This document shows positions 3-21,483 of a stretch of DNA of 21,483 nucleotides, one piece after another. Source of the stretch: a virus; the IMG/VR virus record IMGVR_UViG_3300010885_015333, positions 1 through 21,483 of that record; one strand, 5' to 3'. The translations under genes were made by a program, and so were the position numbers. Under the pieces are notes generated by a model. That model did no database searches, was not told the DNA's origin, and saw nothing but the letters and a program-made list of their open reading frames with translations. Position 1 is the first letter of the stretch; the number at the start of each line of letters is the position of its first letter.

Positions 3-209
3 ATTTGGAAGGATAGGACATCAATTTATGAATGTTCTTTTAACGGTGATTCTGCCAAGTTACTTGAGTGCATGTCCTACTGCGATCTAGATGAGGATAA
101 AAAGGGCATCACCTCTTATCAGGATTTTGCTAGAGATTTAATACACCCAGGTATTGAAACTGTAAAACAGGCGGCCAAAGATATTGCAAATAATATATGT
201 ATAAATTAG
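3..209 (+). CDS. C-terminal fragment of an SGNH/GDSL-like hydrolase (5' end outside window)
   Basis: This is an open frame running in from the left edge with no start inside the window. It gives 68 residues before a TAG stop. The last third contains D-L-I-H-P-G followed by a helix rich in Ala and Lys. This resembles the Asp-x-x-His-Pro-Gly block that ends SGNH/GDSL hydrolases, where Asp and His complete the catalytic triad. Two more complete genes of this kind lie at 7402-8070 and 12295-13125 and end in a similar way (D-N-S-H-P-G and D-N-H-P-G). The frame overlaps the next gene by 13 bases, so the two are probably co-transcribed. The catalytic Ser block would lie outside the window, so the family call rests on one motif and on the paralogues. 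Confidence 0.6.
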   Translation: MWKDRTSIYECSFNGDSAKLLECMSYCDLDEDKKGITSYQDFARDLIHPGIETVKQAAKDIANNICIN

Positions 210-1186
210 AAGATATAACAGACATACATTTGGAATTAACAACCAAGTGCCAAGCTAGATGCCCCATGTGCCCGCGTAGGATTCACGGTGGGGTGAGAAA
301 TCCTTTATTTGAACTAACTGAAATATCTTTAGAACAATTTAAATCTTGGTTTAATTATGACTTCATACGTCAGCTAAACAAATTGTTTATGTGTGGTAAT
401 TTAGGAGATCCCATAATTGCCCACGATTGTTTAGAAATACTACAGTATCTTAGAACTGTTAATCCTAATATTCAATTAATTATGCATACAAATGGTAGTG
501 CAAGGAGTACTCAGTGGTGGGAACAATTAGCATATACTGGGACCAAAGTAGTATTTGGGATAGATGGGTTATCAGATACTCATAGTATCTACAGAATAGA
601 TACTGATTGGAATAAAATTATAGAAAATGCAAAAGCGTTTATACAGGCCAAAGGTATTGCTGATTGGCACATGTTGGTATTTAAACACAACGAACACCAA
701 ATGGAAGATTGTCGTGCCATGGCAACTGCTCTAGGGTTTAACGCCTTTACCACGAAGCATACCAGTAGATTTACAGAGGATGGATTTACTGTGTTGGATG
801 ATATTGGGAAGACTAGATATAAAATTTATCCTACACAACAGAGTTTAAATATGATTCCTAAAATAGTAGAATCATTAATGGACATAAAACCCGACAGCAT
901 AAATTGTACGGCAAAGAAAACTCATCAAATATATGTAGGAGCTGAAGGAGCAGTAAGTCCATGCTGTTGGTTGGACCATAAGTGGGGAATGCCTCACTGG
1001 CCCAAACGTATCGATTACATGGATCAAATTGGAGAGTTTCCTAATTTAAATGAAAATAGTCTTAGAGAGATTTTTGATTCCAAATTCTTTGAACGTATCG
1101 AAGCCACTTGGAAAAATAAACCTTTGCTGGAGTGTTCGAGACAATGCGGAAAGTTTGATAAATTAGGAGCACAGTTTGTTAATTGA
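197..1186 (+). CDS. Radical SAM enzyme with C-terminal twitch/SPASM-like cysteines (paralogue of 1763-2848)
   Basis: This 329-residue protein should bind a [4Fe-4S] cluster that cleaves S-adenosylmethionine to start radical chemistry. The cluster motif is C18-x3-C22-x2-C25, just after a first beta strand (H-L-E-L-T-T-K). The usual SAM-binding Gly-Gly-Glu-Pro is replaced by G-N-L-G-D-P at 67-72. A second Cys group (C237, C256, C257, C313, C317) looks like an auxiliary cluster of the twitch/SPASM type, which in known families often positions peptide or small-molecule substrates. ATG 197 lies inside the end of the SGNH-like gene and has no clear Shine-Dalgarno sequence. The gene overlaps the methyltransferase-like gene at 1176 by 11 bases. 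By eye it is about half identical to 1763-2848, with the same Cys spacing. The substrate is unknown. Confidence 0.88.
   Translation: MYKLEDITDIHLELTTKCQARCPMCPRRIHGGVRNPLFELTEISLEQFKSWFNYDFIRQLNKLFMCGNLGDPIIAHDCLEILQYLRTVNPNIQLIMHTNGSARSTQWWEQLAYTGTKVVFGIDGLSDTHSIYRIDTDWNKIIENAKAFIQAKGIADWHMLVFKHNEHQMEDCRAMATALGFNAFTTKHTSRFTEDGFTVLDDIGKTRYKIYPTQQSLNMIPKIVESLMDIKPDSINCTAKKTHQIYVGAEGAVSPCCWLDHKWGMPHWPKRIDYMDQIGEFPNLNENSLREIFDSKFFERIEATWKNKPLLECSRQCGKFDKLGAQFVN
1165..1169 (+). promoter_or_regulatory. Shine-Dalgarno AGGAG that fixes a TTG start at 1176
   Basis: AGGAG lies 6 bases before TTG 1176, an ideal spacing. The first in-frame ATG, at 1209-1211, has no purine-rich site in front of it. This supports TTG as the real start, inside the end of the upstream radical SAM gene. 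Confidence 0.65.
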
Positions 1187-1763
1187 TACAGATCATTTGC
1201 ATTATTGGATGAACGCTATTCGTCAGAGCCCTGACCCTTTGCGTACTTTGGACGCTTTCTGGGCTGGGCAAATCAAAAGCAAAGAATGGTTAATTGAAAA
1301 CTTAAAACCGTTCATCAAAGATCATGTTGACATCGAAATATACGGTGGATGGGTTGGAACATTATCAAGTATGTTATTTCAAAGCGAAATACCTATCAAA
1401 AAAATATTAAGTATTGATAAAGATCCTAGTTGTGAAACTATTGCACACATGATGAATAAGATAGAAGAAATGGATGGTAGATTTAAAGCTATAACAGAAG
1501 ACATGGTCACCATGTCTTCCTCCAGTAATGTAATCATTAATACCAGTTGCGAACATCTAACACAGCCTGACTTTGATCTATGGTCCAGCAAAATGAAAGG
1601 ATTGTTAGTTTTACAGGGAAATAATTATAAAATACCCGAACATGTGCGTCCTTCTGTAAATCTCGAAGACTTCAAGAGACAGTGTCGTTTAAAATTCGTT
1701 TTATGGGAAGGCGAATTAGAAACTGCCATGTATACCCGGTATATGATTATGGGAAGGAAATAA
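1176..1763 (+). CDS. Class I SAM-dependent methyltransferase-like protein
   Basis: The protein has 195 residues if the TTG at 1176 is used. It carries a Rossmann-type SAM-binding signature: I-E-I-Y-G-G-W-V-G at 53-61 fits methyltransferase motif I, and S-I-D-K-D-P at 79-84 fits the acidic end of strand 2 that holds the ribose. N-T-S-C-E-H at 122-127 falls where motif IV usually lies. It probably transfers a methyl group, but nothing shows the acceptor. It sits between two paralogous radical SAM genes, overlapping the first by 11 bases and the second by 1 base (TAATG). This argues that the three products act on one substrate or in one pathway. A 23-base perfect odd palindrome lies inside it (1497-1519). 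The low-complexity run S-S-S-S at 114-117 abuts that palindrome. The fold call is moderately secure; the methyltransferase reaction is inference. Confidence 0.68.
   Translation: MLIDTDHLHYWMNAIRQSPDPLRTLDAFWAGQIKSKEWLIENLKPFIKDHVDIEIYGGWVGTLSSMLFQSEIPIKKILSIDKDPSCETIAHMMNKIEEMDGRFKAITEDMVTMSSSSNVIINTSCEHLTQPDFDLWSSKMKGLLVLQGNNYKIPEHVRPSVNLEDFKRQCRLKFVLWEGELETAMYTRYMIMGRK
1497..1519 (+). repeat. Perfect inverted repeat, 11-base arms around one central base
   Basis: The left arm GAAGACATGGT (1497-1507) and right arm ACCATGTCTTC (1509-1519) are exact reverse complements around C1508. The repeat lies within the methyltransferase-like gene and encodes E-D-M-V-T-M-S-S. Because of the symmetry, the opposite strand reads the same peptide in one frame. 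No T-run follows, so it is not an intrinsic terminator. Its function is unknown; it may be a protein-binding site, a cruciform or a chance outcome. Confidence 0.85.
1752..1758 (+). promoter_or_regulatory. Shine-Dalgarno GGAAGGA for the radical SAM gene at 1763
   Basis: GGAAGGA ends 4 bases before ATG 1763. That ATG shares its A with the TAA stop of the upstream gene (TAATG). The site supports ATG 1763 over an in-frame GTG at 1682, which would add 27 residues that do not align with the paralogue at 197. Confidence 0.7.
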
Positions 1764-2848
1764 TGTTTAATTTTAATGAACTTAAAAGTGTTCACTTAGA
1801 GATCACTAACAGATGCCAAGCTTCTTGCCCTATGTGCCCTAGAAATATTCATGGCGGGATAGAAAATCCATTGTTGCCTATTAACGATTGGTCATTAGAA
1901 GATTTTATAAAAATATTTCCTACAGATGTATTAGATCAACTTAAAATTATTAATTTTTGCGGAAACTTTGGCGATCCGTTATTGAATAATGATCTTATCA
2001 AAATGTGTGAGTATGTTAAGGTTAATGCTCCGTTGATACAAATAGATATACATACTAACGGAAGTTTAAGATCTACAGCTTGGTGGAAAGAATTAAGAAA
2101 CGCTTTACCTAACAATCATAATGTTATATTTGCCATTGACGGTTTAAAAGATACACATAATTTATATCGAGTAGGCACCAATTACGATTTAATTTTACGA
2201 AATGCTAAAACATTTATCAAAGCTGGCGGTACCACTGAGTGGCATTTTATTAGATTTAAACATAATGAGCATCAAGTCAAGGATTCAGAAAACTTATCAA
2301 AAGAATTAGGCTTCAAGAAATTTACTATGAAGACCAGCCGACGTCATGGCAGGCCTTTCCCAGTAGTTGATAATAACGGCAAGTTTTTATACAATCTTGA
2401 ACAACCATCGGACAGTGAGATTAAATTTGTAAGTAAGTCAGATATACAAGGTCATCAACAATGGCCCAACGCAGACACGATAAATTGCGTGTCAATAGCA
2501 GATAAGGATTTATTTATTGATGCTCATTATCAGTTAAGTCCTTGTTGTATGATTGGTGCATTTTTATATACAAATTATGATGTTGATTTGTTAAAAAAAT
2601 ATGATCTGTACCAAGAAGATTCAGTTGTAGAAGAAGGTGAAAAGGTCCAACAGCAAGTTTTAGGATTTCCAAGGCTTAATGTTCTTAAATCTGGATTTAA
2701 AAATATTATCGAATCTGATCAATGGCAAACTATGTGGCAGCAAAAATGGAAGGATAAATCCAGCTCAACTTGCATAATCATGTGCGGCCCTTATAGTCCA
2801 TATTTAGGTGTACACGAACAAAACACTGAGAAACTAATCAATGAATAA
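1763..2848 (+). CDS. Radical SAM enzyme with C-terminal twitch/SPASM-like cysteines (paralogue of 197-1186)
   Basis: Starting at ATG 1763 the protein has 361 residues, and its N terminus aligns residue for residue with the paralogue at 197. The radical SAM cluster motif is C18-x3-C22-x2-C25, at the same positions. The GGEP position again reads G-N-F-G-D-P (67-72). The C-terminal Cys set, C242, C261, C262, C337 and C341, matches the paralogue and suggests one auxiliary iron-sulfur cluster. Shared blocks include H-T-N-G-S near 97-101, A-I-D-G-L near 124-128 and F-K-H-N-E-H near 165-170. It differs by a longer insert before the last Cys pair. It overlaps the N-twitch radical SAM gene downstream by 8 bases (ATGAATAA). 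This looks like an old duplication with a methyltransferase-like gene kept between the copies. Substrate unknown. Confidence 0.88.
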   Translation: MFNFNELKSVHLEITNRCQASCPMCPRNIHGGIENPLLPINDWSLEDFIKIFPTDVLDQLKIINFCGNFGDPLLNNDLIKMCEYVKVNAPLIQIDIHTNGSLRSTAWWKELRNALPNNHNVIFAIDGLKDTHNLYRVGTNYDLILRNAKTFIKAGGTTEWHFIRFKHNEHQVKDSENLSKELGFKKFTMKTSRRHGRPFPVVDNNGKFLYNLEQPSDSEIKFVSKSDIQGHQQWPNADTINCVSIADKDLFIDAHYQLSPCCMIGAFLYTNYDVDLLKKYDLYQEDSVVEEGEKVQQQVLGFPRLNVLKSGFKNIIESDQWQTMWQQKWKDKSSSTCIIMCGPYSPYLGVHEQNTEKLINE

Positions 2849-4259
2849 AGTTTTTTGGTTACAACCATTAGATACCCAGTTAGGATCCTGGCAACAACAG
2901 ATTACAGATTTGACTGGAAGTCCTAGCTTCTGTGTGTTACCATGGATACATCTTGCTACTCGTCCTAATGGTGATATGCGTATCTGTTGTGTAGCAAATG
3001 CATCGGGCGCCGACAGCGGAGATTACACTGTAGGTCTTGTCAAAAAAGAAGACGGCGAACCTGCCAACTTTTCTCAAGATTTGCCTAGTAGTGCATTTAA
3101 TAATGACTACATGAAATCAGTACGCAAGACGATGCTTGAAGGTGCAGTACCTGCCAGTTGTACCAAATGCTTTGAAGAAGAAGCAGAAGGCATTGCCAGT
3201 AAACGTATTTGGGAAACTGGTACTTGGCACTTAAATGAAAAGATTGATATAAAAGAATTAATTGCCGAAACAGAATTAGACGGTAGTGTTCCTTATAAGT
3301 TACAATACTTAGATTTACGCCTAGGACATACGTGCAACTTAAAGTGTATCATGTGTAGTCCGCATGACAGCAGTATGTGGGTTCCAGAACATAAGAAAGT
3401 ATTTCCTATATTCACCAGCCCTTTGATTAAGAAACAAATGAGTTGGCAAGCTGACGATTTTAATAACAAGTGGCATGAAAACCCTGCGTTCTGGGAAGAG
3501 GTATACGATCAGATACCTAATATTAAACAGTTGTACTTTGCCGGTGGTGAACCGTTGTTAATCAAAGAGCATAAGGTATTGCTTTTAGAAATTATCAAAC
3601 GAGGTTATGCTAAACAGATCAGCCTACGTTATAATACTAACGGCATACTAGTTAACGATGAGATAATTGAAATATGGAGTCAATTCCGCAAAGTCAAGGT
3701 CGGTGTTAGTTTAGATGGCATAGGGGCCCGCGGAGAATACATTCGTTATCCTCTAGATTGGAAAACCGTGGAAACTAATTTAGTTAAACTTGATAACGCT
3801 CCTGACAATATACAAACAAATATTGCTATGGCTGTACAAATCCTAAATATCAAACACGTTCCAGATTTCATCAAATGGAAAGTTCGTATGAACTTTAAGA
3901 AAGTTAACTTTGATAAAAATGCGTCTGGACAAGTAATGGGCGGAGGTTTAGTAGGAGTACATCTGCTTTGGATCCCTACATGGTTAAGTCTGCGTGTACT
4001 ACCTACAGAAGATAAACTACATGTGCGTGAACTATTTGTTGAACTACAACAATGGCTTTGGGACAACTATACGCAAGATACAGAATTCTGGGAAACAAAT
4101 CCTTACGGATGGAAACGTTGGGAAGGCATATTAGATTGGATGGATAAAGAAGATCATACCAACTTATTACCAGATTTCAAAGACTATATTATAGTTATGG
4201 ATAAACAACGTAACACCAAGTTTAAGAATACTTTTCCGGAACTATCACATTTATTATGA
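2841..4259 (+). CDS. Radical SAM enzyme with N-terminal twitch domain
   Basis: This 472-residue protein carries its extra Cys region before the radical SAM core rather than after it. F-C-V-L-P-W-I-H (C31), R-I-C-C (C49, C50) and C-T-K-C (C107, C110) form the N-terminal half-SPASM-like unit. The core motif follows at C165-x3-C169-x2-C172, with A-G-G-E-P at 234-238 binding SAM and a G-V-S-L-D-G-I-G strand later. This order matches what I recall NCBI naming twitch domain-containing radical SAM protein. Known twitch and SPASM enzymes hold an auxiliary iron-sulfur cluster near the substrate, often a peptide. ATG 2841 overlaps the upstream stop by 8 bases. It overlaps the next gene by 4 bases (ATGA), indicating translational coupling. 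A paralogue lies at 6168-7415 on the other strand. Substrate unknown. Confidence 0.9.
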   Translation: MNKVFWLQPLDTQLGSWQQQITDLTGSPSFCVLPWIHLATRPNGDMRICCVANASGADSGDYTVGLVKKEDGEPANFSQDLPSSAFNNDYMKSVRKTMLEGAVPASCTKCFEEEAEGIASKRIWETGTWHLNEKIDIKELIAETELDGSVPYKLQYLDLRLGHTCNLKCIMCSPHDSSMWVPEHKKVFPIFTSPLIKKQMSWQADDFNNKWHENPAFWEEVYDQIPNIKQLYFAGGEPLLIKEHKVLLLEIIKRGYAKQISLRYNTNGILVNDEIIEIWSQFRKVKVGVSLDGIGARGEYIRYPLDWKTVETNLVKLDNAPDNIQTNIAMAVQILNIKHVPDFIKWKVRMNFKKVNFDKNASGQVMGGGLVGVHLLWIPTWLSLRVLPTEDKLHVRELFVELQQWLWDNYTQDTEFWETNPYGWKRWEGILDWMDKEDHTNLLPDFKDYIIVMDKQRNTKFKNTFPELSHLL

Positions 4260-5293
4260 AACCTATAAAGATTGTATCAACACAAAACTCTAATATTTTA
4301 GCAATAAGATGGAATCCTAATAATGTTTGCAATTATAAATGCGAGTATTGCTGGCCCGGAAGCAACACTGGTAACTACAAATCACCCGAAGATTTAGATC
4401 TTATAATTAAAAATTTTAATCATATGATCGAAAGATACAAGACAAAATTAGGTAAAACCATAATACAATTAAGTTTGGCCGGCGGCGAGCCTACTCTTTG
4501 GAAAGACCTTGGCAAATTTATAGAAGCAATCAAAAGAGAAAATAATATCTACTTTACTATAATTAGTAATGGTTCAAGGACACTTCGTTGGTGGAAAGAG
4601 TACGGTCATTTGATAGATAATGCAGGACTATCCTATCATATTTCTCAAGCAGATCCTGATCACATGATCGCCGTGGCGGATACATTATTTGAGTATGGAA
4701 AGAAAGTTACTGTAAAAGTCCTAATGGATCGTAAATTTTGGCAACAAGGATTAGATGTAATTGACTATATGAAAGCCAACAGTAAGTATAAATGGTTTAT
4801 AACCACATGCGAAGTTTTTGAGCCGGAAACTATAAGTATAAAAGGAATAAAAGTCATTGATGCTAATGACATTCAACTAACAAAGGAACAAAAAAGTTTC
4901 TTAAAAAACTCCTTAAAAAGGTTACCTAACATATTATGGTTCTGGAAAAATAGAAAATTAATTTCAGACGGGCATATAAGACTTTACGAAAGCATTGTTC
5001 ATTTTGAAAATGGTAAGACTATGAAAACAAAATCTAATACCTATATTAATAATGGCTGGACTGGTTTTGAAGGGTGGAGTTGTGATATAGGATTAGACAA
5101 TGTTTTCATTGAATGGACAGGTTCAATTCAAGGAGCCTGCACACAGAAGATTTATGGATTAGATTATACCTTTAATATTCTTGATAAAGACTTCACAGAA
5201 AAATTCGATCCCGAATTCAAATCTTCTATATGTTCTATTAAGAATTGTCTATGTGCTTGCGAAACACAACAATCAAAGTTTAGACTTAGTTAA
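4256..5293 (+). CDS. Radical SAM enzyme with C-terminal SPASM-like Cys cluster
   Basis: This 345-residue protein has the cluster motif C25-x3-C29-x2-C32, followed by W-P, and the SAM-binding G-G-E-P at 76-79. The C terminus has a SPASM-like arrangement: C276 in G-W-S-C, C295 after a short hairpin with W-T-G-S, then a dense group C326, C331, C333 and C335. Such groups bind one or two auxiliary iron-sulfur clusters. It begins with an ATGA overlap on the N-twitch gene, so the two are coupled. Its closest relative in the window is the convergent gene at 5273-6175, with which it shares the W-N-x-x-x-x-C-N-Y entry and the F-x-G-W-S-C C-terminal block. The two genes overlap tail to tail by 21 bases, leaving no room for a terminator. 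Substrate unknown. Confidence 0.88.
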   Translation: MKPIKIVSTQNSNILAIRWNPNNVCNYKCEYCWPGSNTGNYKSPEDLDLIIKNFNHMIERYKTKLGKTIIQLSLAGGEPTLWKDLGKFIEAIKRENNIYFTIISNGSRTLRWWKEYGHLIDNAGLSYHISQADPDHMIAVADTLFEYGKKVTVKVLMDRKFWQQGLDVIDYMKANSKYKWFITTCEVFEPETISIKGIKVIDANDIQLTKEQKSFLKNSLKRLPNILWFWKNRKLISDGHIRLYESIVHFENGKTMKTKSNTYINNGWTGFEGWSCDIGLDNVFIEWTGSIQGACTQKIYGLDYTFNILDKDFTEKFDPEFKSSICSIKNCLCACETQQSKFRLS

Positions 5294-6175
5294 CGGAATA
5301 TCTGCCGCGCAGGTACAAAAATTACGGTCGCAAATTACAGGTTCGCCGGGAGCAATAAAGTTGTCTTCATATATGTTGCCGAGACTACCGCCCACACGGC
5401 AAGTAGCACGATGTACATCTCCGTCCCAATTAATCATTAGACTTTCTATACCAGCACTACACGACCATCCTTTGAATTGGTTCTGATGATTCTTAATCAT
5501 GTCGTTGGCGTGATATAATAACTGTGCATGTTCGTTGTTTAACCATACTACTGTGTTTGCTTCTACAGTAGATTCCATAGATTTGATAAAATCTAAATCA
5601 TTAGTATTATAACGCATGTCATCAAACAAATCGTGATCGCCTTTAGTCCAGCGTATACGACGGACAGTATTAGGAATATTACCTAACTGGCATCTAGCTC
5701 TTAATTGTATGGCTGCTGGCATATGATCATGATGTGCCATGATTTGTGCTATAACTTTTACAGTAGACAGCTTGTTAATACTTTCCACAGTATTGAATAC
5801 ACGTTTCCAATCGTATTCTAAATGTATACTAAACACAAATTGATCAACAGGAAGCCCAGCGTAAAAATCGTAAGGACGAGTTCCATTGGTAGTTACACTG
5901 ATCCAACTAATGCCTACATGTTTACAATACTTAACTAACTCATCAAACTTAGGATGTACACAGGGCTCTCCGCCTGTAAAGCTAAGACGAACCGGTTTTC
6001 CAAGAGCAACAAGTTTATCAACACATGTTTTCAATATTTCAATATCAGTATGCGGGCTTTGGTTATCGTGTATCTCGCTTGGGCAATAACTGCAATCGTA
6101 ATTACAGCGTTTGCCAAGGTTCCACTCGATCTTAATTGTACCCTGATGAGGATATCTACTGGTTATTTTAAGCAT
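5273..6175 (-). CDS. Radical SAM enzyme with C-terminal SPASM-like Cys cluster (paralogue of 4256-5293)
   Basis: This 300-residue minus-strand protein has C24-x3-C28-x2-C31 in R-C-N-Y-D-C-S-Y-C-P and the SAM site T-G-G-E-P at 67-71. Its C terminus carries C239 (G-W-S-C), C259, C282, C287 and C289, matching the layout of the convergent paralogue. I-N-W-D-G-D at 248-253 corresponds to I-E-W-T-G-S there. In known SPASM proteins the equivalent hairpin reads roughly I-x-x-D-G-x-V-x-P-C and leads to the auxiliary cluster. Its start overlaps the end of the N-twitch gene (6168-7415) by 8 bases (ATGCTTAA), so it is second in a minus-strand unit. No clear Shine-Dalgarno sequence precedes it, consistent with coupling to the upstream gene. 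Function beyond radical SAM chemistry is not visible. Confidence 0.88.
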   Translation of the reverse strand: MLKITSRYPHQGTIKIEWNLGKRCNYDCSYCPSEIHDNQSPHTDIEILKTCVDKLVALGKPVRLSFTGGEPCVHPKFDELVKYCKHVGISWISVTTNGTRPYDFYAGLPVDQFVFSIHLEYDWKRVFNTVESINKLSTVKVIAQIMAHHDHMPAAIQLRARCQLGNIPNTVRRIRWTKGDHDLFDDMRYNTNDLDFIKSMESTVEANTVVWLNNEHAQLLYHANDMIKNHQNQFKGWSCSAGIESLMINWDGDVHRATCRVGGSLGNIYEDNFIAPGEPVICDRNFCTCAADIPLTKSKL

Positions 6176-7415
6176 GCAATTGAAATTCCGGTGTTACAGA
6201 AAAAAAACTTTGATTACGTGTGCGATCCAATCTGCGATTAAATTCTATACAATCCTGCCACTTATCACTTTGATCTCGTGCCATTAGATAGTTTATATTA
6301 TCCTGTATCTGCCCTTTGGTATAGGAGAGTAGTTCTGGATGTGCTTTGACTAATTGGAAATCTTTGATCCTTTCCTGTATAGCAATAAGCCTATCTATAG
6401 CCAACTGTTTCAAGGGTTGAGGCAATACTTGTGCTGACAAGACTTTAGGGTATTCTACACGATGAGTGTGAAACACAATGCCAAGGTCATCCAAGAAGTA
6501 TTCTATCATCTTGTCCAGTATTAATACATTACTAACTTGTACAGTGACGGCACCCACTATGCGACTGATGTTGGGGATAGTTTGTATTTGCTTTATATTA
6601 TTCACCAGCTCTTCCCAGGATGCATTTCCGCGTACATACTCATAACTTGACCCTATCCCATCAATGCTTACGTTAACAGCAATACTCTTGAACTTAGGCC
6701 AATAGTCCCAAACTGTACGATTACTTTTACCCAGCATACTTAGGTTTGTAGCATATTTGATCTCAATTTGATCACCATATGGAGCCAACATGTCTAATAT
6801 ACGATAATGCTGTGGATCCATTAAAGGCTCTCCTCCAGCAAATTCTACACGTCTAAAATACGGTAGTAATTTTGCTAAACTTGCCCACCATTCAGGACTA
6901 TCTTGGAATTTATCTAAAAATGGTTTACGTTCTAAATCATGTTCTTCTACAATGGTATACATAATATTACCTTCCTTTTTGTAGAAGTCTTTAACTTCAC
7001 TCCAATCATTCCAACTGGTACTGTCCATGGGATGACACATACGACATTTGAGATTGCATAAGTTGTTTAGTTTAAGTTCCATTGTGGGAATTTCAAACGG
7101 CATAACTTCTAACAGTGGTGTATTAGGATATAGATTAATTCGAGCTTCCGGAATCTTACCAGCTATATGACGCTGACGCAAACTTTCTACTCCTTGATCT
7201 TCTAAACTAAAACAAGGTTCACATTCAAGTGGCCGTTCATTGTTTAATACTTGTCTACGGATACGTTGCATTGTGTTGTTATTCCAGATATCTTCTAAGT
7301 TGGCTTTATCGATAAAGCCAACCGGGTGACTTCGACAACATGCACAGATGGCACCGTCTTCTCTCGTAGCTAATCCTGTAAAAGGATGCATGCAAAATGT
7401 TTTACTTTGATTCAT
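6168..7415 (-). CDS. Radical SAM enzyme with N-terminal twitch domain (paralogue of 2841-4259)
   Basis: The protein has 415 residues. The N-terminal half-SPASM-like unit holds C8 (F-C-M-H-P-F), C24, C26 and C27 (C-A-C-C), and C65 and C68 (C-E-P-C). The radical SAM core follows with C120-x3-C124-x2-C127 and F-A-G-G-E-P at 192-197. V-S-I-D-G-I-G corresponds to V-S-L-D-G-I-G in the plus-strand paralogue. It is about 57 residues shorter than that paralogue, mostly before and between the N-terminal Cys pairs. It lies between the SPASM-type radical SAM (8-base overlap) and an SGNH hydrolase (14-base overlap) on the same strand. The order N-twitch then SPASM-type repeats that of 2841-5293 in mirror image. 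This suggests that each N-twitch enzyme works with one SPASM-type partner. Confidence 0.9.
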   Translation of the reverse strand: MNQSKTFCMHPFTGLATREDGAICACCRSHPVGFIDKANLEDIWNNNTMQRIRRQVLNNERPLECEPCFSLEDQGVESLRQRHIAGKIPEARINLYPNTPLLEVMPFEIPTMELKLNNLCNLKCRMCHPMDSTSWNDWSEVKDFYKKEGNIMYTIVEEHDLERKPFLDKFQDSPEWWASLAKLLPYFRRVEFAGGEPLMDPQHYRILDMLAPYGDQIEIKYATNLSMLGKSNRTVWDYWPKFKSIAVNVSIDGIGSSYEYVRGNASWEELVNNIKQIQTIPNISRIVGAVTVQVSNVLILDKMIEYFLDDLGIVFHTHRVEYPKVLSAQVLPQPLKQLAIDRLIAIQERIKDFQLVKAHPELLSYTKGQIQDNINYLMARDQSDKWQDCIEFNRRLDRTRNQSFFSVTPEFQLHA

Positions 7416-13125: not shown

Positions 13126-13126
13126 T

Positions 13127-13651: not shown

Positions 13652-13661
13652 TTTTATAATC

Positions 13662-14986: not shown

Positions 14987-16037
14987 CATATTTCCTTTGA
15001 TACTTTTCAGGTATTGTGTCATATAAGGGTAAGTTTTTATTCACAGCACCGTCACGCAAAATAACCTGATGTACTAACGGACTTACTGGTTTGCCTGGCA
15101 ACATGTCAGCCCAAGATTCGGTTTGGTCTTCTTCCAAGTCAATCGTGCGTACATCCGGCCATTGTATTATCTTGACCAACATGCCATTAATGCGCATTGG
15201 ATAGTGTGCTCTAATAGCATAGCCTGTAGCATATTCATGTGTCCAACCTTTTTGATCACATATTGCTTTCACTCTATCTATCAGCTCGGATAGATATATC
15301 TTTTCCTCTCCTGGATGTCTGCCTATGTCTGTACCCACCCGGATTCTATAGTTATGTGGGCTGAGCGTTTGCCCAAACACTTGTATCTCTTCCAAACAAT
15401 ATTCTAGTTGACTAATAGTTTCTAGCGTATAACTGACATTTTTTATCTTCATGCCTAACTTCATACAGTTGTCAATACCCTCCATCTGTTTCTTTCTAAC
15501 AGTAGCACCCTGATAGTCTGGGTGGTTAAGTCCTATAGTCCAAAATAAATTAGACATGCCTGCAAACTGTTTGCAATATTCATAGTCACTTAAATAGACA
15601 CCATTTGTCAATATCATTATGGAACGTGGCTTACCGGGTAATACCTGTATAGCACGGCAAAGTTCCGGTAAGTCTTTTCTTGTTGTAGGCTCCGCACCCA
15701 TTAAAGCAACAGCATAGCCATCATCCTCCCAAGCACGGATTGTATCCAATATAGAGTTTATACTGGGATCCTTGCTCATATTATCGGGTATTTGATAACA
15801 GTGAGGACAATTTAAATTACAGCGATTAGTAATATCCAGACAGTATGTATGATTAGTCGGACGTTCGTATTTGTAGTTAATATAAAAATCTGCATTAGGT
15901 TCTACAAGATGTACGCTTTCACCGTGCCATTTACATTTTTTTCCTAACCATATGCTGCCGTCTCTTTCAAACAGTTGTGCCGGAACGTGCCTGTAGCAAT
16001 GCTCGCATAAAGATATCGTGTTGTGTATTTTATTCAT
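14973..16037 (-). CDS. Radical SAM enzyme with N-terminal Cys/His finger (MJ0619/Tes-like), tandem copy 1
   Basis: This 354-residue protein begins with a metal-binding-like segment: C11-x2-C14, then C35-x2-H38-G. The radical SAM motif follows, C73-x3-C77-x2-C80, in T-N-R-C-N-L-N-C-P-H-C-Y. M-G-A-E-P at 113-117 replaces the common G-G-E-P. An L-C-x-x-C...K-C-x-x-H-G start before a T-N-R-C-N-L core is typical of the MJ0619-like group, which as I recall includes a pterin methylase and the archaeal tetraether lipid synthase Tes. Those families build C-C or C-methyl bonds, but they are longer. The conserved C-terminal block (L-P-G-K-P-x-S-P-L) is not one I know. It overlaps copy 2 by 8 bases (ATGAATAA). 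The substrate cannot be inferred; the family placement rests on motifs. Confidence 0.82.
   Translation of the reverse strand: MNKIHNTISLCEHCYRHVPAQLFERDGSIWLGKKCKWHGESVHLVEPNADFYINYKYERPTNHTYCLDITNRCNLNCPHCYQIPDNMSKDPSINSILDTIRAWEDDGYAVALMGAEPTTRKDLPELCRAIQVLPGKPRSIMILTNGVYLSDYEYCKQFAGMSNLFWTIGLNHPDYQGATVRKKQMEGIDNCMKLGMKIKNVSYTLETISQLEYCLEEIQVFGQTLSPHNYRIRVGTDIGRHPGEEKIYLSELIDRVKAICDQKGWTHEYATGYAIRAHYPMRINGMLVKIIQWPDVRTIDLEEDQTESWADMLPGKPVSPLVHQVILRDGAVNKNLPLYDTIPEKYQRKYDARD
14993..14997 (-). promoter_or_regulatory. Shine-Dalgarno AAGGA deciding the start at 14986
   Basis: AAGGA on the minus strand lies 6 bases before ATG 14986 and 3 bases before the adjacent ATG 14989. The 14986 codon has the better spacing. 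The alternative ATG at 15022 lacks any such site. Confidence 0.6.
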
Positions 16038-17067
16038 GTTGATATTTTTTAGGCACTGTGTCCAACAGCATCTGTCCTCGATTGACTGCGTGATCTCTCA
16101 AAATAACCTGATGTAGTAATGGACTCATGGGCTTGCCTGGCACAATACTGGCCCACGATTCGCTTTGTACTTCTTCCAAGTCTATTGTACGCACATCGCA
16201 CCATTTGATAAACTTATGTTCAATGCCATTTATACGAACAGCATAGTGTGTTCGGTTGCCACCTACTGGGTCAGGTTCCCAAGTCCACGAATTGTCTTTG
16301 CAGAACTGTTCTGCAACAACGACTAGTTCTGACAAGTATAGTTCCTTAAAGTCACCTTCAGGCACACGACCAATTTCAACACCTAACTGTATCCTAGTAT
16401 TGATGCCAAACTTCTGTACTTCGTGCATCACGTCACTCAACTGTTCCAAGTTGGCCAACGTGTAGGTCAACGTCTTGACATCTAATCCTAGTTTGAGACA
16501 ATTTTCTAAACCTTCCATTTGCTTGACACGTATCTGTCCACCATTGTAGTCAGGGTGGTTCAAGCCAAAAGTCCATTTGAGTCTAGGTATGCCTTCAAAG
16601 CGTTTTACATAATCCCATTTGGCCAAGTAAACACCATTCGTAACTATTATAACACTTCTAGGCTTGCCGGGCAAGGCCTGCAAGGCCAGCACTAGGTCCG
16701 CAAGATCCTTTCTCACAGTGGGCTCAGCCCCTACCAAACTGACAGGTAATCCGTTGTCAGGCCAAGACTGTGCTTCTGCAAGCAGGTATTCAATGCTGGG
16801 ATCTTTACTGCTATTATCGGGCATCTGGTAGCAGTGGGGACAATCTAAATTGCATCGATTGGTAATGTCTAGCCAATAGCTACTGGGACTCCGGCGCTGA
16901 TATTGTTGACTTTTATAAAAGTTTGTGTTAATATCTAGTATTGCTTCTTGATAGCCATGTTTGGGGCAAGTTTTACCCAGCATCATTTGGCCGTTTTTCT
17001 CAAACCGATTTGCTGGTATGTGACGATAGCACTCTTTGCACAGGGAAATTGTTTCTGAATTGTTCAT
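16030..17067 (-). CDS. Radical SAM enzyme with N-terminal Cys/His finger (MJ0619/Tes-like), tandem copy 2
   Basis: This 345-residue protein is the first gene of the minus-strand unit. The finger-like segment is C10-x2-C13 and C34-x2-H37-G. The cluster motif is C72-x3-C76-x2-C79, and V-G-A-E-P lies at 112-116. It aligns with copy 1 along its whole length, more than half identical by eye. Shared blocks include L-D-I-T-N-R-C-N-L, G-L-N-H-P-D-Y, V-R-T-I-D-L-E-E and L-H-Q-V-I-L-R-D. The two diverge in the segment around residues 225-275. Both keep all Cys and His positions, so both should be active and probably handle related substrates. The start is ATG 17067 with no clear Shine-Dalgarno sequence; an ATAAATA box lies 8 bases upstream. 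It diverges from the kinase-like gene at 17099. Confidence 0.83.
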   Translation of the reverse strand: MNNSETISLCKECYRHIPANRFEKNGQMMLGKTCPKHGYQEAILDINTNFYKSQQYQRRSPSSYWLDITNRCNLDCPHCYQMPDNSSKDPSIEYLLAEAQSWPDNGLPVSLVGAEPTVRKDLADLVLALQALPGKPRSVIIVTNGVYLAKWDYVKRFEGIPRLKWTFGLNHPDYNGGQIRVKQMEGLENCLKLGLDVKTLTYTLANLEQLSDVMHEVQKFGINTRIQLGVEIGRVPEGDFKELYLSELVVVAEQFCKDNSWTWEPDPVGGNRTHYAVRINGIEHKFIKWCDVRTIDLEEVQSESWASIVPGKPMSPLLHQVILRDHAVNRGQMLLDTVPKKYQHE

Positions 17068-17098
17068 GTGGCAAATATTTATTGATAATTACTATACC
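17068..17098. promoter_or_regulatory. Divergent intergenic region with ATAAATATTT and -10-like boxes
   Basis: This 31-base gap must hold control signals for the units at 12295-17067 and 17099-21133. On the minus strand ATAAATATTT (17082-17073) repeats the decamer at 8936-8945. TATAGT (17097-17092, minus) and GATAAT (17084-17089, plus) each match TATAAT at 5 of 6 positions. No convincing -35 box accompanies either. The assignment is tentative. Confidence 0.4.
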
Positions 17099-17779
17099 AT
17101 GAAATATTATTACAACAATGTTCCCGGACAAGGACCATGCCGAAATAACTTGATTTACACCAGTCTTATATCCGAGGATGCCAAGACTTTCTGTCAGTGG
17201 TATCACAACGATACCGAATACCACGCTGACAAAAATCAAGTGGTTGATCCAAAATTAATGAAAGAAAAGTTTCATAGGGAATTGCACTACTTGAGCAACA
17301 TGGCTTGGCATAATCCGTACATGGTTCCAAAGATTAAGGAAGTAAATATTCCACAACGTAAAATATATTTGACTATCGATGGTCCGGACTTTTGGGAACA
17401 GGCGGGCTGTGATGTAGCCAACTACGATAGCGTGTTGCCCGATTGGCAAGATCAGATGTTAGCAATTATTCAGGCACACAAAGACCGCGGCTGGCACAAA
17501 TACAGCATGCACCCCAGCAGTTATTTTGTGGTAGATGGCAAACTTAAAAGTATCAATTACTTTTTTACCTATCACAAGGACGAGCCCAACATAAGTATAG
17601 CCGATGTAGAAAGCCATATCTATTCAACAAGACAAGACGAAATGCGCAAGCATATAGGCACACTAGGTATTAAGTGGGATGAACCACAATCTTGGAACAC
17701 CATGGATAAACTGTGCTGGGCAAGTTTTGAAACTAACTATCCAAAAGATTTTCTTAAACGTGTTCTATGTTTGATATAA
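17099..17779 (+). CDS. Degenerate kinase-like protein (paralogue of 11150-11845)
   Basis: The start is taken at ATG 17099, outside the divergent radical SAM gene. An in-frame ATG at 17036 lies inside that gene. The protein has 226 residues. F-H-R-E61-L could hold the helix-C glutamate of a kinase fold. Q-R-K-I-Y-L-T-I at 86-93 is a central strand, and L-P-D-W-Q-D-Q-M lies at 113-120. W-H-K-Y-S-M-H-P-S-S-Y-F-V (132-144) corresponds to a catalytic loop in which Asp is replaced by Ser or Met. L-K-S-I-N-Y-F (149-155) corresponds to the metal loop with Asn in place of Asp. Both catalytic acids are thus missing, more so than in the paralogue, so phosphotransfer is unlikely. A binding or scaffolding role is possible. 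It overlaps the GNAT-like gene by 13 bases. The fold suggestion rests on weak motifs. Confidence 0.5.
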   Translation: MKYYYNNVPGQGPCRNNLIYTSLISEDAKTFCQWYHNDTEYHADKNQVVDPKLMKEKFHRELHYLSNMAWHNPYMVPKIKEVNIPQRKIYLTIDGPDFWEQAGCDVANYDSVLPDWQDQMLAIIQAHKDRGWHKYSMHPSSYFVVDGKLKSINYFFTYHKDEPNISIADVESHIYSTRQDEMRKHIGTLGIKWDEPQSWNTMDKLCWASFETNYPKDFLKRVLCLI

Positions 17780-18318
17780 AACCATGGTCGGAAGACTTAG
17801 ATCTAGCAGAGTTTTACGCTACAGCAGAAGCTAAAGGCTTTGTAAACAACGCTAGCCAAAAAATGCTAGTAGATAGTCTGTCTAAGGAGAAAACATGGTG
17901 CGTGTGGATTCTTTACTACAACAATCAAGCCATAGGCAGTGTGGGCGCACACAGTTTTCCGGAGATGGGGGAAGATGCTTATCGCATCGCGGCCCGTACT
18001 TGTGTATTCTCAGACCATATACCTATTCCTAGTATTCGTACACGCAATCAAATAGTTACACATCAACATGTTACTAGCCAGTTTTTAATACCTGCGTGTA
18101 TAGAATGGACTCCGCCCTGGGCAAACTTATACATTACTAGTAATGAAAACAGTATAGGAACACAACGATTGGTACACAATATTTTCGGACCTGCTATGGA
18201 AGCTACTGGTCAAATGAAACGCATTAAAGAAATAACCTATAGGGGAACTAAACAAACTGTGTGGGAACTCTATGCTAACAAATTTTTAGAAGAACTAGAT
18301 AGGAATCCCCGATGGTAA
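17767..18318 (+). CDS. GNAT-like acyltransferase, tentative
   Basis: The middle part of this 183-residue protein, W-C-V-W-I-L-Y-Y then Q-A-I-G-S-V-G-A (44-61), looks like the beta hairpin of a GNAT N-acetyltransferase. The region N-S-I-G-T-Q-R-L-V-H at 128-137 could be the acyl-CoA-binding turn and helix, although the standard R/Q-x-x-G-x-G/A motif is not exact. W-T-P-P-W at 114-118 and a histidine-rich V-T-H-Q-H-V (97-102) are unusual. If it is a GNAT it would acylate an amine or hydroxyl group on a metabolite or protein. It lies between the kinase-like gene (13-base overlap) and the 481-residue unknown gene (7-base overlap). The tetramer CTAG occurs seven times in its 552 bases, well above what its base composition predicts. 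Confidence 0.45.
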   Translation: MFDIKPWSEDLDLAEFYATAEAKGFVNNASQKMLVDSLSKEKTWCVWILYYNNQAIGSVGAHSFPEMGEDAYRIAARTCVFSDHIPIPSIRTRNQIVTHQHVTSQFLIPACIEWTPPWANLYITSNENSIGTQRLVHNIFGPAMEATGQMKRIKEITYRGTKQTVWELYANKFLEELDRNPRW

Positions 18319-19757
18319 TGAAATTTAAAACTGAAAAGAAACGATCGATTGTGTTTTGTATCTTAGATATTATTGATAATTGTTGTAGTCCAGAAGCTAA
18401 AGTAGTTTGTAGCAATTTAACTGATTTCCTAATAAATCGAGCCGATCTGCATCATTATGATATTTTAATAAGCAAAGACGAGGATGAATTACTAAATTCT
18501 GCATCTAGCGAAGGTTACGCTCATGCAGTTCTTATTTCGGCAGGCACTAGCTTAGGATTATCTGATAGACTGTTTGATGCGATCGAAGATCAATGTAACG
18601 AAGATTTCTTTATAGCAGGACATATTTTAGATAGAGGTGATCATTCTTACTATAAGAAAAATGCCTGCTTTGAATTACATCAACAGTTTTATATTATTAA
18701 TCTCGAGCAGTATAAAGAACTAGGATATCCTATAGTAGGTAAGGAAGAATGGGTAGAGTATCAACAGATTGCTCCTATTCGAAGTGAAGAATGTTTGCAT
18801 GGTGATCCAGAAATACCGGTTTGGATGACAAAAGGTACTGAGATTAAAACATATTCGGTTAAGTTGCACGGGTGGAATATTTTAAATGTCGGCTTAGAGC
18901 ATGATAAGAAATTAATACCATTAACACGAAGAATTCGAGACAGCAAAAAATATTTGTATTATGAACATGATCATGTGTTTTTAAGACAGTTGGCTGATAT
19001 AAAACAAAATCAGTTTTTTGGAATGAATTTTTTTGCTGGATGGAATTCGGATAGACTAAGAGAAGACCTGCTCTTCGATGGGCCTGTTGATCAATATGCT
19101 AGTGTAGGTATTGGATTTAATTGGATTAAGAATCTATGTATTGTAGGATTTACAGAAAACACCAAAGTAATTTTTACAGACATTAATTATAACTGTTTAA
19201 TGTTTATGAAAAAGATGGTTGACGAATGGGATGGAAAAGATTACGATGAGTTTTATTGGAAGCATAAACCAATGCTACCAAATAACCCACCACACATTCC
19301 AGATACTTATAAAGATCAAATAACAGAACAATGGCAAAAATTCTTAACAACAATTGATGATTGGGATTCCATATGGGGCAAAGTTAAAAATTTAACGTAT
19401 GATTATATCCTTATAGACTATACAGCATCATTTAATTTTGATTGGTTAGAAGAAGGTAAGAAAACTTTATTAAACCTAAGCGACCTATACAATCACGGAC
19501 CATTTGTTGCTAGTTCGAGTTTGAAATATCGTATCAGTTGTGAAAACGGATTATTACAAAAACTTAAAAATAAAGATCCAAATATAACACTTTTAATGAC
19601 TTCGAGAGCCGCTGATGGATTTTGGAAAGTTGCTAACAATCAACGTTTAAATCTTGCTAGCGAATTTGCCTATACTGACATTAAGGAATTAAAAACACCA
19701 AGATGGCACATAGAAGATTGGAAACATGCTAGCGAAAGACCGCTGGGAGTAGTCTAA
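18312..19757 (+). CDS. Unknown two-part protein with methyltransferase-like C-terminal region
   Basis: ATG 18312 has AGGA 7 bases upstream; an ATG at 18318 (TAATG) is possible. I do not recognise the 481-residue product. The N-terminal part has H-A-V-L-I-S-A-G-T-S-L (71-81), F-F-I-A-G-H-I-L-D (99-107) and L-H-Q-Q-F-Y-I-I-N-L (122-131), a pattern that recalls nucleotide-sugar or glycosyltransferase-like Rossmann folds. The C-terminal part has S-V-G-I-G-F-N-W-I (264-272) and V-I-F-T-D-I-N-Y-N (286-294). These look like motif I and the acidic strand-2 end of a SAM methyltransferase. Y-I-L-I-D-Y-T in the last third could be motif IV. No signal peptide or membrane helix is seen. It is coupled to the PP-loop gene by TAATG. 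A bifunctional group-transfer role is possible but unproven. Confidence 0.6.
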   Translation: MVMKFKTEKKRSIVFCILDIIDNCCSPEAKVVCSNLTDFLINRADLHHYDILISKDEDELLNSASSEGYAHAVLISAGTSLGLSDRLFDAIEDQCNEDFFIAGHILDRGDHSYYKKNACFELHQQFYIINLEQYKELGYPIVGKEEWVEYQQIAPIRSEECLHGDPEIPVWMTKGTEIKTYSVKLHGWNILNVGLEHDKKLIPLTRRIRDSKKYLYYEHDHVFLRQLADIKQNQFFGMNFFAGWNSDRLREDLLFDGPVDQYASVGIGFNWIKNLCIVGFTENTKVIFTDINYNCLMFMKKMVDEWDGKDYDEFYWKHKPMLPNNPPHIPDTYKDQITEQWQKFLTTIDDWDSIWGKVKNLTYDYILIDYTASFNFDWLEEGKKTLLNLSDLYNHGPFVASSSLKYRISCENGLLQKLKNKDPNITLLMTSRAADGFWKVANNQRLNLASEFAYTDIKELKTPRWHIEDWKHASERPLGVV

Positions 19758-20488
19758 TGAATTTAGATTATATCAACATTGATCGAATCCCGTTAGGAAT
19801 TTATCGTGACGGTCCAGTTGGTATAGGTATAAGCGGAGGAGCAGATAGTGCTGTGTTGCTTTATATTTTAATGTCTAACACTAAACAGACTATACACATT
19901 TATAATATGTGGTCAACGTATAGGAAGTCTGCTTTTAAGAAAAGTGTCGATGCTGTAATTGAAACTTGTTCTAAACTAACAGGCAATACAAACTATATGG
20001 TACATAAAATGCAGTCCGAGCCAGACGAGTCTATTGAATTTTATTTTAATAATTTAACTCAAGCATTAGATAGCAAAGAAATAGATATAGTCTACTTGGG
20101 TATAACTAATTTTCCACCCAAAGAAGAATATTTAAAATTTAGTCAGCAACAACAAGATTGGCACAATGAATTTAGAAGCGATGAAATCGTTCATCCTTTA
20201 TTTGGATTAGATGTTCCTGTAGACAAAGCCGAAGACTTTGGTTCAGTTAGTCCATTGACTATAGACGGACAACCAACTGACAAACTAGGACTAGATACTA
20301 GAGCTTATATTCCGTTACGCAATCATAATAAAAAAGCCATAGCTCAGTTATACAAAGCATTTGATCTAGAACAAACACTACTGCCAGTTACTAGAAGTTG
20401 CGAAGATGATGATCACATTGAATCTCATTGCGGCAAGTGCTGGTGGTGCCAAGAACGTATATGGGCATTTGGACATATTGGAGAATAA
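19757..20488 (+). CDS. QueC-like PP-loop ATPase
   Basis: This 243-residue protein has S-G-G-A-D-S at 26-31, the PP-loop that binds ATP pyrophosphate in N-type ATP pyrophosphatases. The C terminus has C215, then C225-G-K-C228-W-W-C231-x2-R234-x2-A-F. That agrees with the zinc site of QueC (7-cyano-7-deazaguanine synthase), C...CGxCxxCxxRxxAF. QueC turns a carboxylate into a nitrile through adenylation and ammonia. Deazaguanine pathways occur in tRNA queuosine synthesis and in phage DNA modification. No QueD, QueE, GCH1, DpdA or transglycosylase gene is visible here. The central third differs from what I know of QueC. It may therefore adenylate another carboxylate for amide or nitrile formation. 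GGAG lies 7 bases before ATG 19757. The motifs are strong; the exact reaction is not. Confidence 0.78.
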   Translation: MNLDYINIDRIPLGIYRDGPVGIGISGGADSAVLLYILMSNTKQTIHIYNMWSTYRKSAFKKSVDAVIETCSKLTGNTNYMVHKMQSEPDESIEFYFNNLTQALDSKEIDIVYLGITNFPPKEEYLKFSQQQQDWHNEFRSDEIVHPLFGLDVPVDKAEDFGSVSPLTIDGQPTDKLGLDTRAYIPLRNHNKKAIAQLYKAFDLEQTLLPVTRSCEDDDHIESHCGKCWWCQERIWAFGHIGE

Positions 20489-21133
20489 ATGAAAGAGTAT
20501 TATCACTCAGAAGGTCGTTATTTAAAACTAGATATAGAGTTACCTTACAAAGAAATGTGCGCTGAAGCATTTGCCCTATTAGATAGATTTAGTCCCCATA
20601 GAGGGGACGAAGATTCACACGGGTGGGAAAGTCTAACTATACACGGGCTTGGTTGGGATAAACACGAAAACTACAGCAACTATGGTTATGCTAAAGGCAA
20701 AGATGCTAGTAATGACATGTTCTGGACAGAAATTGCAGATGTGTGTCCTATTACAACTCGTTGGCTTAAAGAAGTTTTCCCTTGCAACAAGTACGGTCGT
20801 GTTAGGTTTATGTTGTTACGTGCTGGCGGGAAAATTGCTTTGCACAGTGACTCAAGTATAAAATTAATAGAAAATATAAACGTTGCTCTAAATAATCCAA
20901 TAGGTTGTAAATGGATTTGGGAAGATGGTGAAGAAATAATTATGGAACCCGGGGGTGTATATGCTATGAATTTACACTACCATCATTCGGTAATTAATGA
21001 AAGCAATGAAGATCGTATGCATATGATTATTGCTAGACATGATGCACTAGACGAATGGAAACAGTTAATCGAGGATGCCGCAGTTAAACAAGGTATTACT
21101 GGCGAATATAAAATAATCGACGAGTTGCCTTAA
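20489..21133 (+). CDS. Fe(II)/2OG oxygenase-like protein, Asp/Asn beta-hydroxylase type
   Basis: In this 214-residue protein R-F-M-L-L-R-A-G-G-K-I-A-L-H119-S-D121 gives the strand and H-x-D iron motif. M-E-P-G-G-V-Y-A-M-N-L leads to H165/H166-S-V-I-N, the distal His. R176 in N-E-D-R-M-H-M-I would bind 2OG. This order and spacing fit the aspartyl/asparaginyl beta-hydroxylase (cupin-like) group. The N-terminal 100 residues are polar and tyrosine-rich, with G-W-D-K-H-E-N-Y-S-N-Y repeating aromatic residues. The gene begins right after the QueC-like stop (TAA then ATG), with GGAG 5 bases upstream. It meets the TauD-like gene tail to tail, the two stop codons sharing TTAA at 21130-21133. It is a distant relative of the oxygenase at 8947-9612. 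Target unknown. Confidence 0.72.
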   Translation: MKEYYHSEGRYLKLDIELPYKEMCAEAFALLDRFSPHRGDEDSHGWESLTIHGLGWDKHENYSNYGYAKGKDASNDMFWTEIADVCPITTRWLKEVFPCNKYGRVRFMLLRAGGKIALHSDSSIKLIENINVALNNPIGCKWIWEDGEEIIMEPGGVYAMNLHYHHSVINESNEDRMHMIIARHDALDEWKQLIEDAAVKQGITGEYKIIDELP

Positions 21134-21483
21134 CTATAATCTTGATCAGGAAAATCAAACGCCATTCTATGTAAGAGTCGGCGCTCTATTTCCTTAAATG
21201 GCCAACGTTTGTGTATTCCAAGCCACTGCTCTGCTATAACGATATCACCATCTTGCCAGTCGTGGTGATAACAATATTTTTCTTGCGTTGTATATTCAGA
21301 CAACCAGCTAATTATATCTGCATTTTCTTCTTCCGACAATCCTACAAATCCAGAAATTTGTAAGAATGGAAAATAAAATCCCTTTCTACCAGCTATGTTT
21401 TGCATTACAAGATTTGGAGTGTACCCGTCAAGCGCCTGTCCGGTATAACCTGCTAGCATATCGGCATCATGTTCAGCCCAGTT
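21130..21483 (-). CDS. C-terminal part of a TauD/TfdA-type Fe(II)/2OG dioxygenase (5' end outside window)
   Basis: The frame is open to the right edge, so the ATG at 21459 is probably internal; 117 residues are visible. H-D-W-Q-D-G-D-I-V-I-A-E-Q followed by W-L-G-I-H-K-R matches the TauD/TfdA C-terminal pattern H-x-W-x-x-G-D-x-x-x-x-D-N...x-H. Here the distal iron His is in G-I-H-K-R. The R-R-L-L-H-R-M strand would supply the 2OG-binding Arg. G-L-S-E-E-E-N-A-D-I-I-S-W-L fits the helix before it. The proximal H-x-D motif would lie beyond the window. Family members oxidise taurine, carnitine precursors, phenoxyacetates and many natural-product intermediates. The Asp of the usual W-D-N is replaced by Glu-Gln, which is a second-shell change. 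It converges on the oxygenase at 20489. Confidence 0.72.
   Translation of the reverse strand, partial: NWAEHDADMLAGYTGQALDGYTPNLVMQNIAGRKGFYFPFLQISGFVGLSEEENADIISWLSEYTTQEKYCYHHDWQDGDIVIAEQWLGIHKRWPFKEIERRLLHRMAFDFPDQDYS

Follow-up and report, generated by a model that had tools for sequence, protein, structure and literature searches.

A radical SAM- and oxygenase-rich phage gene island, conserved in gene order and neighbouring tail-fibre genes in its relatives

The DNA considered here is an IMG/VR virus record (IMGVR_UViG_3300010885_015333) of 21,483 bases, the whole of which is called the window below; its 25 genes, packed at a coding density of 99% and mostly overlapping their neighbours by a few bases, make up most of a gene island dominated by radical S-adenosylmethionine (SAM) enzymes and oxygenases. 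The genes, their order and the purifying selection on them are observed, as are the phage setting, the site on the side of the fibre genes, the iron-sulfur (Fe-S) cluster assembly proteins encoded by some carriers and the homologous islands of Bdellovibrionota, which are predatory-type bacteria. As to function, the best explanation, on which we are evenly divided between belief and doubt, is that this cassette-variable island in the host-recognition region would make or tailor a surface glycoconjugate by means of radical and oxygenase C-H chemistry.

A sequence-only reading of the window had counted nine radical SAM genes and seven Fe(II)/2-oxoglutarate enzymes. The former count stands in full: nine open reading frames (ORFs) exceed the gathering score of PF04055, every one of them with the CX3CX2C motif, and since chance does not produce nine independent matches at E 1e-7 to 1e-13, these nine genes are certainly radical SAM genes. 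Two of them, W04 and W07, score above the curated threshold (170 bits) of the N-terminal-twitch family NF033640 (N_Twi_rSAM) as well; W11 matches TIGR04479 with E 4e-14, far under that family's cut-off. The latter count is secure for W24 (PF05118) and W25 (PF02668), which pass the Pfam cut-offs, but for the other five proteins it depends on weaker profile matches or on the HxD...H motif. In particular, W10 falls just short of PF05118 (20.2 bits, the cut-off being 22.6) and its profile aligns with the W24 family at an hhalign probability of 74%; W17, for which neither Pfam nor profile searches of the PDB gave a convincing relative, matches the W24 family by profile (hhalign probability 89%, E 2e-6); W13, W15 and W16, also without a Pfam match, carry an H-x-D...H motif that is invariant in their family, which aligns in register with the W24 family at a probability of only 31% and finds weak beta-hydroxylase/cupin matches in the PDB. 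The iron triad HxD/E...H is conserved among the relatives of six of the seven proteins, W25 being represented by its C-terminal part only (relatives in other contigs have one to three full copies). Judged from these motifs and profiles, all seven are probable oxygenases, W13, W15 and W16 being the least secure.

The island recurs in phage contigs from the environment. Viral contigs were scanned with W19, W04 and W22, giving 35, 80 and 6 loci, respectively; after overlapping loci of one record had been merged, 79 contigs besides the window were laid out with their genes called (outside the window, by a simple ORF caller). The 25 families of the window are represented by five or more in 79/79 of these contigs, by ten or more in 68/79 and by 20 or more in 10/79, proportions that are biased, and are not natural frequencies, because the contigs were chosen through three island genes. 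That choice does not account for the common gene order, which is largely conserved: W05 and W06 are adjacent in 44 of 46 contigs, always tail to tail, W12 and W13 in 56 of 63, and W20 and W21 in 37 of 42. The synteny of at least five families that the sequence-only reading had looked for in other contigs is thus present, and neither of the outcomes that it named as speaking against a distinct system, dispersed homologous genes or an already characterised cluster of a standard kind, was seen. In the 22 records in which they were counted, PF04055 matches number 7-15 each over the whole record. When full-span islands are defined as those with both the radical SAM family F000 and the fibre gene F003, 11 contigs qualify, and in all 11 a conserved core is found that consists of F000, W04, W06, W07, W09, W10, W17 and W21. 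Viral relatives of W04 are mostly 59-92% identical to it. Around the core, genes are exchanged: W08 is replaced by the PP-loop gene F001 in many relatives, W05 by the set F086-F038-F087-F088, and the TauD copies are optional. The ratio of nonsynonymous to synonymous substitutions (dN/dS) is 0.02-0.2 for the nearest relatives, as obtained by a simple Nei-Gojobori calculation in which synonymous sites are in many cases near saturation; the island genes are therefore functional and under purifying selection. It was also observed that W06 (5273-6175) has 99% protein identity to one relative to which W08 is only 70% identical, a sign of recent cassette exchange.

Within the window no phage hallmark gene is present, so that its phage nature stands on the class of the record and on synteny with its relatives; a search of the window for known RNA families and tRNAs gave none. 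The longest relative, G001, of 269,730 bp with its island at 4.8-32.7 kb, is a tailed jumbo phage (>200 kb, with terminase and structural genes) related to PA5oct: its terminase is 53% identical to that of this Pseudomonas jumbo phage, and sheath-like, tube-like and large fibre-like genes were recognised by reading. Four further long contigs have replication, structural or large fibre-like genes in common with G001. In the contig G003 the island (43.7-63.1 kb) is preceded by gp6-like and VrlC-like baseplate genes, fibre-like genes and four glycosyltransferase-type (GT8-type) genes, and is followed by F003, a fibre gene with an Mtd_N domain, which lies at most two genes from an island gene in 18 of 21 cases. 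Taken together, the layout of G003 and the adjacency of F003 place the island of the relatives in a structural/tail-fibre region, the window itself being without flanks. The suggestion that phage structural or glycan loci might flank the island is borne out for fibre and baseplate genes wherever flanks are visible, but for glycosyltransferases in some contigs only; fibre genes and GT8-type genes flank some islands. A search of cultured phages for a close homologue of the island gave distant matches only.

Several relatives carry IscU, IscA or both, in keeping with a large need of Fe-S clusters; G001, for instance, encodes an IscU (NifU/IscU, PF01592, E 2e-41) and an IscA-type protein (PF01521) at L133:10224-10833, that is, G001 50,224-50,833. 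Other genes outside the islands include those for FolE and a QueE-like radical SAM protein in G003 (L161:11730-13636) and for a QueD-like PTPS protein in G001 (L133:5672-6196), with which 7-deazaguanine chemistry is possible in phages of the G003 and G001 types. G001 also has two extra twitch radical SAM genes off its island (L136:10415-15542 and L143:18708-20559), one of which adjoins F018 and GT8-type genes and the other an SGNH-like gene.

Relatives are not confined to phages. A first genome scan with W07 as sole query found nothing; a scan of genome contigs that took W04 orthologues as queries, with two sequence patterns only, and hence samples the bacterial relatives without counting them, returned relatives at 42-50% identity, mainly in metagenome-assembled genomes (MAGs) of Bdellovibrionota. 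With a threshold of E 1e-50, W04 has matches in 16 of 144 Bdellovibrionota genomes and, the seed genome aside, in none of 299 genomes from the phylum to which a Sphingomonas genome belongs. In the tree, phage W04 falls into a supported clade of its own, with the bacterial W04 clade as its sister. Many bacterial loci hold F000, W01 or W03, W04, W02 and F018 together. A Bdellovibrionia MAG (G023; L211-L212) has 33 NF033640 matches, many of them within one 30-kb stretch; about 15 radical SAM genes are found there in about 30 kb, with relatives of W22, W24 and W09 and an amidinotransferase-like gene. About 4 kb separate the start of the bacterial cluster G066 from the genes for a bacterial sugar transferase and a CapD-type protein, and the cluster G111 includes a UDP-sugar dehydrogenase and a glycosyltransferase family 2 (GT2) gene; beside the homologous bacterial islands no fibre gene was recognised. 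At the start of a contig labelled 'Rickettsiales' among the matches stands a relative of a structural phage gene; this contig, too, may come from a phage. The sequence-only reading has to be corrected here, in that islands of this kind lie not only in viruses but also on Bdellovibrionota chromosomes. That Bdellovibrionota are the hosts of these phages, as the sister clade of W04 suggested, was considered and set aside: phage IscU, taken from a relative, is closer to that of Pseudomonadota (identity up to 87%) than to that of Bdellovibrionota (up to 77%), and the kinship of phage and bacterial W04 is more readily explained by an exchange of genes or by common ancestry.

The partner proteins widen the range of chemistry. 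The AlphaFold model of W22 (predicted local distance difference test, pLDDT, 91.5) predicts with high confidence a fusion of a GT-A-like and a methyltransferase domain: the top VIA-align match of the former is the capsid glycosyltransferase of PBCV-1 (2p73; Z 11.2, 4% sequence identity), the latter aligns with NNMT at Z 9.3, and profile searches of the PDB with W22 gave no convincing relative. The DxD motif, kept in three divergent copies of the G003 type, is absent from the W22 of the window, which makes glycosyltransferase activity uncertain. The profile of the W12/W20 family matches TTK kinases (E 4e-6), and kinases head the Foldseek list of the W20 model at TM scores of about 0.4-0.5. W09 has a weak threonine-aldolase match in the PDB (E 0.3), W23 scores under the cut-off of the PP-loop family PF01171, and W02, labelled a methyltransferase by eye only, has no Pfam match and no convincing PDB relative in a profile search. 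Among the relatives, the GT8-type protein F179 matches glycogenin (E 4e-7), UDP-sugar (nucleotide-sugar) dehydrogenase genes lie inside islands, and islands carry AMP-ligase, aminotransferase and halogenase genes; at L131:14641-19049 the island of G001 has a tryptophan halogenase (PF04820, E 2e-83), a class-III aminotransferase and an amidinotransferase-like protein, the last named by reading. As far as gene content allows one to judge, the chemistry on offer would comprise C-H oxidation, methylation, pyridoxal phosphate (PLP) chemistry, acyl/acetyl-type and phosphoryl transfer, and amide-type ligation. The genes of the window are collected in Table 1.

Table 1. Genes of the window, with strand and the evidence for each assignment.
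Gene	Positions	Strand	Assignment and evidence
W01	197..1186	+	Radical SAM + SPASM; PF04055 36.7 bits, PF13186 31.3 bits
W02	1200..1763	+	Conserved protein; in 52/79 contigs; adjoins W04 relatives in bacteria too
W03	1760..2848	+	Radical SAM; PF04055 35 bits; paralogue of W01 (35% identity)
W04	2841..4259	+	N-terminal-twitch radical SAM; NF033640 389 bits; 11/11 full-span islands
W05	4256..5293	+	Radical SAM; PF04055 50.8 bits
W06	5273..6175	-	Radical SAM; PF04055 46.8 bits; 11/11 full-span islands
W07	6168..7415	-	Second twitch radical SAM; NF033640 324 bits; 11/11 full-span islands
W08	7402..8070	-	SGNH/GDSL-like hydrolase; PF00657 E 0.002, below cut-off
W09	8063..8908	-	PLP-type enzyme; Asp157 and SLSK185G invariant; 11/11 full-span islands
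W10	8947..9612	+	Asp/Asn-hydroxylase-like oxygenase; HAD...H invariant; 11/11 full-span islands
W11	9609..11153	+	Radical SAM of B12-binding/PhpK type; PF04055 44.9 bits
W12	11150..11845	+	Protein-kinase-fold protein; W12/W20 family profile
W13	11838..12329	+	HxD...H oxygenase-like; motif invariant, weak profile matches
W14	12295..13125	-	SGNH-like hydrolase by motif/eye only; no Pfam match
W15	13127..13651	-	HxD...H oxygenase-like; 69% identity to W16
W16	13662..14186	-	HxD...H oxygenase-like
W17	14186..15022	-	Oxygenase-like; H188, D190, H244, R257 invariant; 11/11 full-span islands
W18	14973..16037	-	Radical SAM + HMPTM zinc ribbon; PF04055 50.9 bits, PF23545 48.9 bits
W19	16030..17067	-	Radical SAM + HMPTM zinc ribbon; PF04055 48.8 bits, PF23545 51.9 bits
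W20	17099..17779	+	Protein-kinase-fold protein; model pLDDT 91.9
W21	17767..18318	+	GNAT-like by eye of the sequence-only reading, no Pfam match; 11/11 full-span islands
W22	18312..19757	+	Two domains: GT-A-like (8-230) without DxD, methyltransferase-fold (230-451)
W23	19757..20488	+	QueC-like PP-loop; PF06508 33.3 bits over C-terminal 57 residues only
W24	20489..21133	+	Asp/Asn-hydroxylase-like oxygenase; PF05118 E 3e-11
W25	21130..21483	-	TauD-family oxygenase C-terminus, cut by window end; PF02668 E 4e-13

A surface glycoconjugate is the product favoured here because the recurring neighbours of the island are glycosyltransferase-type genes and tail fibres. We count in its support the Z score of 11 of W22, the match of F179 to glycogenin, the UDP-sugar dehydrogenase, the locus of the Vibrio phage K566 (see below) and the sugar genes of G066 and G111, as well as the radical SAM cassettes found in the host-recognition cluster of pelagimyophages (PMC7029224). 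In the pathway proposed, the conserved core would make or transform a sugar- or aminosugar-based unit with the assistance of the kinase-fold, methyltransferase-type and glycosyltransferase-type proteins, and the exchangeable radical SAM, oxygenase, SGNH, PP-loop, AMP-ligase and amidino-/aminotransferase cassettes would oxidise, methylate, acylate or otherwise decorate it; the unit would then be placed on virion fibres or on the host envelope, and the surface so decorated could alter adsorption or superinfection. Several points weigh against such a product: in many contigs the left neighbours are small phage genes, not glycosyltransferases; no clear active glycosyltransferase is present within the window, W22 being without DxD; F018 has a DxD motif but no Pfam or PDB relative; and SPASM and twitch radical SAM enzymes and Asp/Asn hydroxylases are best known to act on peptides and proteins. 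The proposal of the sequence-only reading that the island tailors a substrate made elsewhere agrees with the want of any precursor peptide, non-ribosomal peptide synthetase (NRPS) or polyketide synthase (PKS) gene and with the site beside fibre genes; tailoring would not be its sole task, in view of the GT-A-like/methyltransferase fusion of the window and of the AMP-ligase, nucleotide-sugar dehydrogenase, aminotransferase and halogenase of the relatives. A bolder form of the same idea, possible but put forward tentatively, is that tailed phages and Bdellovibrionota share an unrecognised class of biosynthetic system in which at least ten radical SAM enzymes and a bank of oxygenases would build a polymer of a new kind on the cell or virion surface by serial C-H functionalisation, cassette swaps varying the surface by which phage and host recognise each other.

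The known preference of twitch and SPASM radical SAM enzymes and of Asp/Asn hydroxylases for peptides and proteins makes modification of the adjacent tail-fibre protein the strongest rival: the island enzymes would hydroxylate, methylate, epimerise or cross-link it, perhaps with subsequent glycosylation of the hydroxylated residues, for which collagen maturation offers a parallel. The adjacency of F003, the AspH-type oxygenases W10, W17 and W24, the fact that the window and the records listed have at least two twitch radical SAM proteins that exceed the NF033640 cut-off, and the resemblance of the GT-A-like domain of W22 to the accessory domain of the lysyl hydroxylase LH3 and to COLGALT1 all point this way; however, the island holds no short conserved substrate ORF, its bacterial homologues have no recognised fibre neighbour, and sugar-nucleotide, AMP-ligase, amidinotransferase-like and kinase-fold genes are atypical of protein modification, so that we consider this rival unlikely, though worth serious attention. 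Maturation of a ribosomally synthesised and post-translationally modified peptide (RiPP) was rejected: no short precursor ORF in the gaps of the island is shared among islands beyond near-identical contig pairs. The halogenase, class-III aminotransferase, AMP-ligases and PLP enzyme of the relatives, together with cassette exchange and the chromosomal homologues in bacteria, might instead suggest that the infecting phage makes a diffusible natural product (an antibiotic, siderophore or signalling molecule); this is quite improbable, given that the island adjoins fibre genes and that neither NRPS or PKS genes nor genes for a precursor peptide, a transporter or resistance were recognised in the window.

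That QueC-like, kinase, PLP and radical SAM genes elaborate a DNA base is a hypothesis to which we attach very little weight. The island does contain QueC-like genes, no full-length QueC was found elsewhere in the searched records, and G003 supplies FolE- and QueE-like genes and G001 a QueD-like gene, albeit outside the island and in different phages; yet the QueC-like genes are optional (F001 in 5/11 and W23 in 3/11 full-span islands), the island kinase has a protein-kinase fold and is not of the P-loop hydroxymethyluracil (hmU) kinase type, and Tet_JBP (PF12851) had no match in 23 records, a search in which control genomes gave no match either. Finally, homologous islands on bacterial chromosomes could be taken to indicate a cellular contaminant misclassed as viral; the supported clade formed by the phage W04 sequences, and the presence of terminase, baseplate and fibre genes on the contigs that carry islands, make this scarcely credible. 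For the longer contigs it is largely refuted; for the window, which has no hallmark gene, the case rests on synteny.

Clusters with so many radical SAM genes are rarely known, whatever their kind, and this one is kept under strong selection in viruses. If its product is indeed a surface glycoconjugate, phages would reshape the recognition surface through radical C-H chemistry. The core genes W04, W06, W07, W09, W10 and W17 constitute a defined enzyme set for expression, the chromosomal relatives in Bdellovibrionota are a second place in which to seek the same chemistry, and the cultured Vibrio phages K566 and K567 provide an entry point for the laboratory.

Among known systems, those two phages are similar in having several twitch radical SAM genes in one phage region; indeed, in K566 five twitch-type radical SAM genes alternate with glycosyltransferase-type genes (L164:16705-25492, 33017-35347), but the proteins are only about 22-27% identical and no oxygenase set was seen. 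The family NF033640 includes W04 and W07 by its curated score; it is a family only, and the rest of the island lies outside it. The Bdellovibrionota islands G023, G026 and G111 have F000, W01/W03, W04, W02 and F018 in common with the phage island, and some of them also W06, W07, W09, W22 and W24; they differ in being chromosomal, in the identity of most homologues (25-50%) and in gene order. The PBCV-1 capsid glycosylation enzyme A064R is comparable in that the N-terminal domain of W22 has its best VIA-align match in the capsid glycosyltransferase structure of that virus and that W22 bears a methyltransferase-type domain as well; on the other side, sequence identity is 4%, W22 is without DxD, and we know of no counterpart there of the radical SAM and oxygenase partners of the island. 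A literature search, which left out most subscription papers, found no description of the island. The closest precedent is the host recognition cluster (HRC) of pelagimyophages, which contains fibres, a VrlC-like gene and glycosyltransferases, with radical SAM cassettes in one genome pair (PMC7029224); in that study the freshwater genomes had no radical SAM genes, and no comparable density of them was reported (PMC7029224). Both are large variable islands of the structural/tail-fibre region with radical SAM cassettes (PMC7029224), but the island described here consists almost wholly of radical SAM and oxygenase genes, its families and their order are strongly conserved over many contigs, and its carriers include at least one jumbo phage related to PA5oct. 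The original statement that the combination is unlike any named system has therefore to be narrowed, since radical SAM cassettes in phage host-recognition clusters had already been described (PMC7029224); what sets the island apart, as a biosynthetic island of the phage host-recognition region, is a composition and a conservation unlike those of the known ones.

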